Shown here piece by piece: positions 39,573 through 43,352 of a stretch of DNA of 64,000 bases; position 1 is the first letter of the stretch, and every line of letters begins with the position of its first letter. Source of the DNA: Rhodothermales bacterium (GTDB lineage: Bacteria; Bacteroidota; Rhodothermia; Rhodothermales; UBA10348); the NCBI GenBank assembly GCA_024711125.1, contig JANJTM010000059.1, positions 1-64,000 of the forward strand, read 5' to 3'. The notes below the pieces were generated by a model that made no database searches, was not told the origin of the DNA, and saw only the letters and a list, made by a program, of their open reading frames with translations. The position numbers and the translations under genes were made by a program.

Positions 39573-40994
39573 ATGAAACGACTCCTGATACCGATTCTCT
39601 CGGTGCTGCTCCTCCTGCCGGCATTCCTGCTCTCCATGCCGGACGCCCAGATCACCGAGGGCCTGCACTACACCCGTGCCGGCAAGGCCTTCTGGTACTC
39701 GGCCTCCAACGGCGGATTCGAACAGTACACGAACGTTCCGATGACCTCGCTCGTGTGCAACAACTGCCATGCGGCCACCCTGGCCAACGGGACTCCGGTC
39801 AACAACGCCACCTACCAGCCGAGCTGCGACGACTGCCACATCGAAATCGGCGACAAGCCCGCCGATGCCGTCTGCCGCGGTTGTCACAGTCGGCAGAACA
39901 CCGAGTTCTCCCTCTCGAAAAACACCAATCCGGTGATTGCCGAGCGTTTCCGCGACGTGCACCGGGACCAGTACGGCATGGGCTGCGTCGATTGCCACAG
40001 CAAGGACGAGCTGCATGGCGACGGGGTGCGCTACAACACCATGTTCGAGGCGCAGCACCTGAATACCACCTGCGAGGACTGTCACCAGGGCTCCGACGCG
40101 CCGTTGTCGACGGTGCCGGAGCACGCGAAGCACATCGCGGACGTCGAGTGCGCCGCATGCCACGCGTCCACCGTAATGGCCTGCGTGAACTGCCATTTCG
40201 AGTCGGAGATCGTGGAGAAGAAGCGGTTCTACGGCGGTCCGCCGATGAACGGCTTCATGCTGCTCGTGAACAACACGTACACGGGGAAGGTCGGCCCGGC
40301 GAGCTTCCAGTCGCTCACGTTCGGCGACCAGACCTTCTTCGGCATGGGTCCGTTCGGGCCCCACACGACGAAAAGGGAAGGCCGTACCTGTTCCGACTGC
40401 CATGACAATGCCAACGTGCGGGCCTACAACCAGAACGGTGCGATCCCGTTCATCCAGTGGAACGCCGCCACGGCTCAGCTCGAGATGAAGGCGCCGGGCA
40501 TCATCCCGGTGCCGGAAGACTACCGGACGGCCCTTGCGATGGACTATGTGACCTTCCTCGGGCAGCCGTCGGATGCCGTCACCAACCCCCGCAACCCGGC
40601 CGAATGGGCGTTCAAGAAGAGCGGTACCGACGACGCCCACATGCTCTTCGCGACCCCCCTGTCGCCGACGCAGATGGCCGCGCTGTCGACCGCGATCGTC
40701 GGCGTCGAGACGTCGCCCGACCTTCCCGACGGATTCCGACTCGACGGGAACTACCCGAACCCGTTCAATCCGACGACCACGCTCGCCTTCGAGCTTCCGA
40801 CCGAGGGCCGCGTGACACTGGAGGTCTTCGACGCCGCAGGACGCAGCCGCGCCGTCCTGGCCGACGGGATGACCTTGCCGGCAGGCAGGCATTACATGCC
40901 GTACGCGGCCGGGGACCTGACGAGCGGAACGTATTTCGTGCGCCTCGCCTGGGACGGATACGTGGTGACGCGGGCGATCACCCTGTCCAGGTAG
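39573..40994 (+). CDS. Octaheme c-type cytochrome with T9SS C-terminal sorting domain
   Basis: 473 residues. Signal peptide (1-25), then eight CxxCH heme-binding motifs with histidines at 66, 89, 105, 142, 171, 197, 208 and 277 (CNNCH, CDDCH, CRGCH, CVDCH, CEDCH, CAACH, CVNCH, CSDCH). Extra histidines between the motifs can serve as distal ligands. After a linker, residues about 385-473 form a typical T9SS type A sorting domain (NYPNPFNPTTTLAFELP, TLEVFDAAGR, LTSGTYFVRL). It should therefore be matured in the periplasm and moved to the cell surface, suggesting electron exchange with extracellular acceptors or donors. It is a single gene, with no cytochrome biogenesis or menaquinol dehydrogenase gene adjoining. 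The enzyme family (for example tetrathionate or nitrite reductases) is not recognised. Confidence 0.9.
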   Translation: MKRLLIPILSVLLLLPAFLLSMPDAQITEGLHYTRAGKAFWYSASNGGFEQYTNVPMTSLVCNNCHAATLANGTPVNNATYQPSCDDCHIEIGDKPADAVCRGCHSRQNTEFSLSKNTNPVIAERFRDVHRDQYGMGCVDCHSKDELHGDGVRYNTMFEAQHLNTTCEDCHQGSDAPLSTVPEHAKHIADVECAACHASTVMACVNCHFESEIVEKKRFYGGPPMNGFMLLVNNTYTGKVGPASFQSLTFGDQTFFGMGPFGPHTTKREGRTCSDCHDNANVRAYNQNGAIPFIQWNAATAQLEMKAPGIIPVPEDYRTALAMDYVTFLGQPSDAVTNPRNPAEWAFKKSGTDDAHMLFATPLSPTQMAALSTAIVGVETSPDLPDGFRLDGNYPNPFNPTTTLAFELPTEGRVTLEVFDAAGRSRAVLADGMTLPAGRHYMPYAAGDLTSGTYFVRLAWDGYVVTRAITLSR

Positions 40995-41034: not shown

Positions 41035-41065
41035 CCGTGCCCCGGCGGGAGCAGCCGGGGCACGG
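41035..41065. terminator. GC-rich hairpin after the octaheme cytochrome gene
   Basis: 12-bp perfect stem CCGTGCCCCGGC (41035-41046) with GCCGGGGCACGG (41054-41065), 41 bp after the cytochrome stop. No T tract follows on either strand, so it may be a factor-assisted terminator or an mRNA 3'-end stabiliser. Confidence 0.4.
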
Positions 41066-41072
41066 ACGGCCG

Positions 41073-41112
41073 AAAAACGAAGCGCCCCGGTCTGCGGAGA
41101 CCGGGGCGCTTC
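41073..41112 (-). terminator. Intrinsic terminator in the dnaK direction
   Basis: 15-bp perfect stem (41079-41093 and 41098-41112, loop GCGG) followed on the minus strand by CGTTTTT (41077-41073). It is 336 bp beyond the dnaK stop, so dnaK transcripts ending here carry the whole TTACGG hairpin array in their 3' end. Confidence 0.7.
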
Positions 41113-41139: not shown

Positions 41140-41400
41140 GGGGCCTTACGGGACCCCCTAAATCGGGCCCGGCCCTCGGGCGGCGTCGTGGAGGCCTTAC
41201 GGAGCCTCTCGTTGCGCAGCCACCGGGTCGGGCTACACGCCAGGCAGGGCCTTCTCTCGTCTTACGGGACGGAGCGCCTTACGGGGCGAACTGCACCTGG
41301 ATTGGGCATGCCGGCCTTACGGGGCCGACCGGTTCGGTCTTACGGGACCGAGGCGGCGTCTTACGGGACGCGCTCACGTGTGGTACACCTTACGGGGTGT
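41140..41400 (-). repeat. Array of eight short hairpins with an invariant loop
   Basis: Eight inverted repeats share the same six-base loop (plus strand TTACGG, minus strand CCGTAA), but their 4-6 bp stems differ. Loop positions are 41146, 41197, 41262, 41279, 41317, 41340, 41361 and 41390 (first base). Minus-strand stems, from the dnaK side, are ACACC/GGTGT, GCGTC/GACGC, CGGTC/GACCG, CGGCC/GGCCG, CGCC/GGCG, CGTC/GACG, GAGGCT/GGCCTC and GGGGTC/GGCCCC. The last two contain G-U wobbles on the minus strand but C-A mismatches on the plus strand, so the minus-strand RNA is the likelier functional form. No protein gene is supported here. The array lies between the dnaK stop and a dnaK-oriented terminator. 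Confidence 0.85.
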
Positions 41401-41447: not shown

Positions 41448-43352
41448 TCACTTCTTGTCGTCCTCGTCCACGACCTCGTAATCGACGTCGCGAACCTCTT
41501 TCTCGCCTTCTTCACCGGATTCGGACGCACCCGGGGCCGAAGCCTGCGCCTGCTGCGCATTGTACAGGTCCTGCGACGCCTCGCCCCAGGCCTCGTTCAG
41601 CTGCTGCATGGCCGATTCGATCTCGGCCAGATTGCGTGCCTTGTGAGCTTCCTTGAGGCGGTCGTGGGCCGCGTCGATCTTGGCACGCTTGTCGGCGGGA
41701 AGCTTGTCCCCGTAGTCCTTCAGGTTCTTCTCGGTCGAGAAAAGAAGCGCGTCGGCCGCGTTGAACTTGTCGGCCTCCTCGCGGCGCTTGCGGTCCTCGT
41801 CGGCGTGCGCCTTGGCATCGGTGCGCATCTTCTCGATCTCGGCCTGCGAAAGGCCCGAAGACGCCTCGATGCGGATGGTCTGTTCCTTGCCGGTGGCCCG
41901 GTCCTTCGCCGACACGCTCAGGATACCGTTCGCGTCGATGTCGAAGGTGACCTCGATCTGCGGAATGCCGCGCGGCGCGGGGGGAATACCGTCCAGGTGG
42001 AAACGCCCGATGGTCCGGTTGTCGTTGGCCATGGTCCGGTCACCCTGGAGCACGTGGATCTCGACCGAGGGCTGGTTGTCGGACGCCGTCGAGAAGACCT
42101 CGCTCTTGCGCGTCGGGATCGTCGTGTTGGCGGGGATCAGGACCGTCATCACGCCGCCGAGGGTCTCGATGCCCAGGTTCAGCGGGGTGACGTCGAGGAG
42201 TAGCACGTCGGTGACGTCGCCCGACAGCACGCCGCCCTGGATGGCCGCGCCGATGGCCACGACCTCGTCCGGGTTCACCGATCGGTTGGGCTTCTTTCCG
42301 AAGAACTTCTCGACGACGGCCTGGATGGCGGGGATGCGGGTCGAGCCGCCGACGAGGATGACTTCGTCGATCTTGTCCTTTCCGAGTCCGGCATCCTTCA
42401 GCGCTTTCTCCATGGGCGGAATCGTGCGCTGGATGAGGTCGTCGACGAGCTGCTCGAACCGGGCCCGCGTGAGGTCGAGCGTCAGGTGTTTCGGACCGTC
42501 GGCCGTCGCCGTGATGAACGGCAGGTTGATGGTCGTCTGCGTCGAGGACGAGAGTTCGATCTTCGCCTTCTCGGCGGCCTCCTTGAGGCGCTGGAGGGCC
42601 ATCGGGTCCTTGCGCAGGTCGATCTGCTCCTGCGACTTGAATTCGTCGGCGATCCAGTCGATGAGCCGCTGGTCGAAGTCGTCGCCGCCGAGGTGCGTGT
42701 CGCCGTTGGTCGACTTCACCTCGAAGACCCCGTCGCCGAGTTCGAGGATCGAGATGTCGTAGGTACCGCCGCCGAGGTCGAAGACGGCCACGATCTCGTC
42801 CTGCCCCTTGCGGTCGAGCCCGTAGGCGAGTGCGGCGGCCGTGGGCTCGTTGATGATGCGGCGAACCTTGAGGCCCGCGATTTCGCCCGCCTCCTTCGTC
42901 GCCTTGCGCTGCGCGTCGTTGAAGTAGGCCGGGACCGTGATCACGGCCTCGGTGACCTTCTCGCCCAGGTGGTCCTCGGCGGTCTGCTTGAGCTTCTGGA
43001 GCACGACGGCCGAGATCTCCTGCGGGGTGAATACCCGGTCGTCGATCTTCACGCGGGCCGTATCGTTCTCGCCGTGCACGACCTGGTAGGGGACCTCGCT
43101 GATCTCGTTCGCGACCTCTCCGTACTGACGGCCCATGAAGCGCTTGATCGAGGCGATCGTGTGCTTCGGATTCGTGATGGCCTGCCGCTTGGCCGGCGCG
43201 CCGACGAGGCGCTCGCCGTCCTTCTTGAAGGCGACGATGGACGGCGTCGTGCGGGCGCCCTCCGAATTGGTGATGACGACCGGTTCGCCGCCTTCCATGA
43301 CGGCGACGACGGAGTTCGTCGTGCCCAGGTCGATGCCGATGATCTTGCCCAT
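41448..43352 (-). CDS. dnaK: Chaperone DnaK (Hsp70)
   Basis: 634-residue cytoplasmic Hsp70, of the family's usual length. N-terminal ATPase domain begins [14 protein letters not shown] and carries [37 protein letters not shown] and [11 protein letters not shown]. The linker is [15 protein letters not shown]. The substrate-binding domain (about 390-510) and helical lid follow, ending in an acidic [21 protein letters not shown] tail like other bacterial DnaK. The start is chosen at MGKII; 25 upstream in-frame residues are unrelated. It is divergent from pgsA; grpE and dnaJ are not in the window. The 256-bp upstream gap holds no CIRCE element that I can see. Confidence 0.99.

Follow-up and report, generated by a model that had tools for sequence, protein, structure and literature searches.

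Why a six-base loop should be held constant eight times over behind a dnaK gene, on stems that are unrelated to one another, is the question raised by the DNA analysed here, a window of 64,000 nt from a Rhodothermales bacterium (GCA_024711125.1, contig JANJTM010000059.1, positions 1-64,000 of the forward strand). On its plus strand the word TTACGG occurs at 41146, 41197, 41262, 41279, 41317, 41340, 41361 and 41390, which corresponds to CCGTAA on the minus strand, that of dnaK. If only perfectly paired stems are counted, with G-U accepted, their lengths on the minus strand are 6, 6, 4, 4, 7, 6, 5 and 5 bp in order of rising plus-strand coordinate. The initial annotation had reported TTACGG eight times within 250 bp, each time as the loop of an inverted repeat with a varied stem, between the dnaK stop and a terminator oriented like dnaK; both the positions and this placement (stop 41448, terminator 41112-41079) are confirmed, with stems of only 4 bp in two of the copies. 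In the direction of dnaK transcription the features of the locus are:

41448-43352, minus strand: dnaK (Hsp70), Pfam HSP70 with E 3e-265, an orthologue being present in 31 of 31 relatives; same strand as the array and upstream of it
41385-41400, minus strand: hairpin 1, stem 5 bp, loop CCGTAA at 41390-41395
41356-41371, minus strand: hairpin 2, stem 5 bp, loop CCGTAA at 41361-41366
41334-41351, minus strand: hairpin 3, stem 6 bp, loop CCGTAA at 41340-41345
41310-41329, minus strand: hairpin 4, stem 7 bp, loop CCGTAA at 41317-41322
41275-41288, minus strand: hairpin 5, stem 4 bp, loop CCGTAA at 41279-41284
41258-41271, minus strand: hairpin 6, stem 4 bp, loop CCGTAA at 41262-41267
41191-41208, minus strand: hairpin 7, stem 6 bp with a U-G closing pair, loop CCGTAA at 41197-41202
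41140-41157, minus strand: hairpin 8, stem 6 bp including one G-U pair, loop CCGTAA at 41146-41151
41079-41112, minus strand: intrinsic terminator of the dnaK transcript, downstream of the array, a 15-bp stem followed by GTTTTT; its loop is CCGC, not CCGTAA, and it is also detected by a terminator scan

The hairpin array and its strand

The first hairpin follows the dnaK stop by 48 nt, and beyond the array lies a convergent gene for a multihaem cytochrome with a C-terminal sorting domain, which ends at 40994. Just past the dnaK terminator, at 41035-41065, there is a second strong inverted repeat of 12 pairs. No promoter belonging to the array itself was seen, and a search for sigma-28-like promoters upstream of the array and upstream of the dnaA site of the same genome found none.

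All eight array copies of CCGTAA are paired, with stems of 0-3 bp at the eight other occurrences of the word in the 64-kb window. Dinucleotide shuffles of the array region gave a mean of 0.004 such hairpins and a maximum of one, against the eight observed. When every hexamer loop in the window was scored for clusters within 300 nt on stems of at least 4 bp, CCGTAA came first with eight, and the next best, its own complement aside, reached two. The hairpins are irregularly spaced (17 to 65 nt) and their stems have no sequence in common, which argues against a plain tandem repeat. They are also spread over all three reading frames, so that a coding repeat or repeat protein could be ruled out. 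A T-tract directly after the stem is present in none of the eight, so that the array cannot be read as a series of terminators.

Two of the stems bear directly on the transcribed strand. At 41140-41157 and 41191-41208 a C-A mismatch on the plus strand turns into a U-G pair on the minus strand, as had been noted earlier, and the reverse case, a mismatch mended on the plus strand, is absent from the inner four pairs of all array stems. Folding energy alone does not choose between the strands, as the RNA of the dnaK strand folds with z = -3.5 and the opposite strand folds well too. Among relatives (the named ones are Rhodothermales MAGs) a T-tract lies on the CCGTAA side after 25 of 28 hairpins. 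The one-strand U-G pairs and the T-tracts on the CCGTAA side together indicate that, as judged from the sequence, the transcribed RNA is the CCGUAA (minus, dnaK) strand. This agrees with the minus-strand RNA of fixed loop and compensatory stems put forward in the initial annotation, for which the covariation described below speaks as well.

A covarying motif of the Rhodothermales

The window's own genome contains three further hairpins, two just 3' of dnaA, the second being the terminator itself, and one between bcp and an epimerase gene. A covariance model built from the 11 hairpins of this genome found further matches in 30 relatives. The homologues for which such a search had been proposed include hairpins 3' of dnaK in a different genus, and G055 has a further array of several hairpins. 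A model of 35 hairpins shows double changes at all eight pairs and 66 compensatory cells versus 21.7 +/- 3.5 in shuffles, and 85% of the cells of its alignment pair versus 24-44% when it is slid. The loop reads CYGUAA in all 35 aligned hairpins, the sole common change being C to U at position 2. The closing pair is pyrimidine-purine, nearly always C-G and rarely U-A or U-G, and the pair two positions beyond it is purine-pyrimidine without exception.

In 114 genomes of the order, at a threshold of at least 27 bits, the CYGTAA model gave about 57 matches versus four for a model with the same stems and the loop reversed, the matches in those genomes on which the 35-hairpin model was trained being partly circular. 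Genomes outside the training set also carry the hairpin, namely G047, G049, G051, G054-G057 and G064-G071. Families f13 and f15 have no match and f14 has one; the reversed-loop control model does match these three. A sample of the phylum outside the order, searched with strict filters that leave absence unproven, returned only one weak match. A model match in Rhodothermus (G020) sits within an open frame and was left uncounted as real. Copies per genome are few and mostly single, and large arrays are rare, one species having eight copies, one five and one three. By these comparisons the hairpin counts as an RNA motif restricted to part of the Rhodothermales, within which it is widespread. Neither the array nor any of 13 related loci passed the gathering threshold of an Rfam 15 family, in line with the earlier remark that no described family with this loop was known, and literature searches for the loop found no bacterial motif. 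This suggests that the CYGUAA hairpin motif has so far gone undescribed.

Simpler word searches were less informative. A double-CCCGTAAG pattern gave, known arrays aside, about as many matches as its reversed control; a triple-CCGTAA pattern recovered mostly coding sequence or unrelated repeats, plus two true arrays; and a first census of all hairpins with stems of at least 9 was overwhelmed by coding sequence and uninformative. In the window's own genome CTTACGGG is scarce, with 42 copies (10 of them in hairpins) versus 184 for the reversed word, which is an incomplete control for composition. A regular repeat in G054 (C15:25-155, L220), CCCGTAATTTCTACGAG at every ~42-44 bases, is CRISPR-array-like and unrelated to the hairpins.

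Genomic contexts of the hairpin

By a simple open-frame and GC3 rule for coding status, 24 of 28 CYGTAA matches are intergenic, and 25 of the 28 run into a T-tract; the 20 best reversed-loop matches are all coding by the same rule, and one of them is followed by a T-tract. The motif thus reaches well beyond dnaK: in relatives it is found most often, in few copies, where other transcripts have the loop of their intrinsic terminator. That terminators in general prefer this loop was rejected, since the loops of the other terminator-like hairpins in ~860 kb are all different; CCGTAA is hence not the general terminator loop here.

Several positions recur across genera or families. A hairpin pair lies 3' of dnaA together with a conserved block, CCAGAACACCG, in genera g1, g4 and g10, and one further genome keeps the first hairpin in its dnaA 3' region, with the loop CTGTAA. 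The block precedes the dnaA hairpin pair and is kept in at least four genera (L007 5488-5760; L069, L071, L073, L081; L150). Downstream of dnaK, in two genera, there are the eight hairpins of the window, one in G009 and one, with the loop CTGTAA, in G018. The hairpin follows hemW and a DUF192 gene in families f9 and f12, and it stands upstream of folK in families f3 and f8; some copies are found upstream of an exo/endonuclease-family gene and others. In the hemW-linked RNA of f12 (L120, L113, L117) a first hairpin with the loop CCGTCC is followed by a CCGTAA terminator. The second array, in G055 of another family, has five hairpins 3' of an 83-codon frame (L246 4827-5060), and one long outer terminator stem (GTAGACTTCTTCAGC ... 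GCTGAAGAAGTCTAC) encloses all five before a run of TTTTTTT. The three-hairpin array is in G008.

A further setting is provided by putative short RNAs of ~60-100 nt with the hairpin at their end, which lies 68-79 nt downstream of a sigma-28 (FliA)-like promoter (TAAG-N14-CCGATAA, called by consensus only), in families f1, f2 and f7; f3 has a similar short RNA at a promoter distance of 113 nt, and one of the seven copies in f1 (G001) has no scoring promoter of this type. At L093, L100, L103, L111, L112 and L127 the sigma-28-like promoter lies ~75-79 nt upstream of the loop, and such promoters are likewise present at L106, L108 and L075. In f1 the short RNAs are followed by a conserved gene that matches no Pfam family and has the motif FLDC..CDFDYVRR.

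Possible readers of the loop

The retention of the loop despite stem drift and changing position suggests that it is read by something. The usual readers of such loops are proteins, e.g. CsrA and ANTAR proteins, and in sponge RNAs of the CsrB/RsmZ type many hairpins with one fixed loop are bound by a protein. The parallel with these RNAs drawn in the initial annotation stands as far as architecture is concerned: in both cases many short fixed-loop hairpins of free stem sequence are carried on one RNA, here with eight hairpins in the window and five in G055, and single sites occur in other transcripts. It does not extend to the protein, because CsrA (PF02599) was found in none of 31 genomes while the E. 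coli, B. subtilis and T. maritima controls were positive. The Csr loop is GGA, unlike the CYGUAA found here, where GGA is absent from the loops of all 35 aligned hairpins, and the array differs further in lying behind dnaK.

Targets of ANTAR proteins (EutV, NasR, AmiR) resemble the motif in being paired hexaloop hairpins of which the second overlaps a terminator. However, ANTAR-target loops require A1 and G4 (PMC8164766, PMC3369931), whereas the CYGUAA hairpins, though often paired, have C1 and U4. Membership in this class was rejected on the loop; an ANTAR domain was found in none of the 31 genomes, though the control genomes were silent too. A different precedent is offered by Nrd1 of the yeast Nrd1-Nab3-Sen1 termination system, which binds CCGUAACC (Kd 2.1 uM; PMC10317158) and thus resembles the proposed reader in that GUAA is read near transcript ends; unlike the hairpins, its sites are single-stranded, the system is eukaryotic, and no homology is claimed. 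An RRM protein as the shared reader was also rejected, RRM_1 being missing from the hairpin carriers G024, G025, G026 and G028. With Csr and ANTAR membership failing and RRM missing in four carriers, the reader, if a protein, would be of another kind.

The explanation that we favour, at roughly even chances, is that a loop-reading RNA-binding protein binds CYGUAA hairpins at transcript ends, the dnaK array being a multivalent site. Each hairpin would be one recognition element to which the putative protein binds: its stem is short and free in sequence, its closing pair is pyrimidine-purine (almost always C-G), and its hexaloop reads C-Y-G-U-A-A. Single or paired copies, often in the loop of an intrinsic terminator, would mark the ends of chosen transcripts, where the bound protein may influence the 3' end by affecting its stability, its termination or its pairing with other RNAs. 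The eight copies in the dnaK 3' untranslated region, ahead of the terminator, would form a multivalent site, which might load the dnaK mRNA as a hub or titrate the protein as a sink under strong dnaK expression. A sponge role of the dnaK array, which the initial annotation had suggested beside control of the 3' end of the dnaK mRNA, is possible, and as most copies are single, titration would at best be a special case. The array, its strand, the covariation, the distribution over the clade and the link with terminators are observations, whereas the binder protein, its titration and any effect on dnaK are inferred.

Alternative explanations

Part of this pattern could be explained by a loop preference of terminators or by an RNA partner. 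The plainest rival is a purely structural role, in which the hairpins would do no more than shape 3' ends, as terminators or as additional barriers to 3' exonucleases, and the loop would simply be one that folds well and has no partner. Most copies in relatives being intrinsic terminators, and the array lying directly upstream of the dnaK terminator, this account fits the many single copies, but it fits neither the fixed loop nor the T-tract-less array. Blocking exonucleases needs no invariant loop over diverged stems and several families and no copies devoid of a T-tract, the other terminators of the same genomes have loops that all differ, and the motif has few copies per genome; we therefore regard this account as doubtful.

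As a second alternative, the loops might be a surface for RNA-RNA pairing, with CYGUAA kissing a UUACGG partner, which could for instance be a small RNA or come from the antisense 3' end of a convergent gene. The common change of C to U at position 2 would still pair with UUACGG through G-U, which makes an RNA partner a fair rival; several copies form the ends of putative short RNAs with sigma-28-like promoters, and dnaA and dnaK each face a convergent gene. Against this, the analysis found no conserved partner RNA, pairing over six bases with a single loop type would leave little target choice, the closing pair is constrained as well, and the first-hairpin loop CCGTCC in f12 breaks the pairing, so that we hold it to be rather unlikely.

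An ANTAR-type switch made of two hairpins and working by antitermination or attenuation, in which one hairpin ahead of a terminator hairpin would control read-through, is consistent with the recurrent hexaloop pairs whose second member is within a terminator, and with the several copies upstream of folK, an exo/endonuclease-family gene and others. The loop positions and the lack of ANTAR domains described above (with the silent control) count against it, as does the lack of a co-oriented gene after dnaA or dnaK, and it appears quite improbable. Finally, a DNA-level element, be it a REP-like repeat or a single-stranded DNA hairpin for a nuclease or transposase, is very improbable, given that, although the copies are intergenic, palindromic and scattered, their stems lack a common sequence, unlike REP families, and their G-U pairs and T-tracts are confined to one strand. 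The DNA uptake sequences of Neisseria and Pasteurellaceae, which lie within the stem of terminator hairpins and have very many genomic copies, share with the motif a fixed sequence inside terminator hairpins; in the present motif, by contrast, it is the loop that is fixed, and there are few copies.

Implications

Taken further, a loop-reading protein might belong to a post-transcriptional network of the Rhodothermales, in which an RNA-binding protein of a new type would read CYGUAA loops at the 3' ends of the dnaA and dnaK mRNAs and of the short RNAs with sigma-28-like promoters, and the arrays would serve as a sponge, i.e. a Csr-like logic where CsrA was not found. We offer this broader proposal tentatively and consider it less probable than the binding of the hairpins by a protein as such. 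Little is known of how RNA regulates genes outside the model phyla, and CsrA was not found in the 31 genomes considered here. As the six-base loop is the only fixed part of the element, the hairpin could be used as bait for a protein or RNA reader. If a protein were found, it would be a new loop-reading regulator and possibly represent a second, independent invention of the hairpin sponge.
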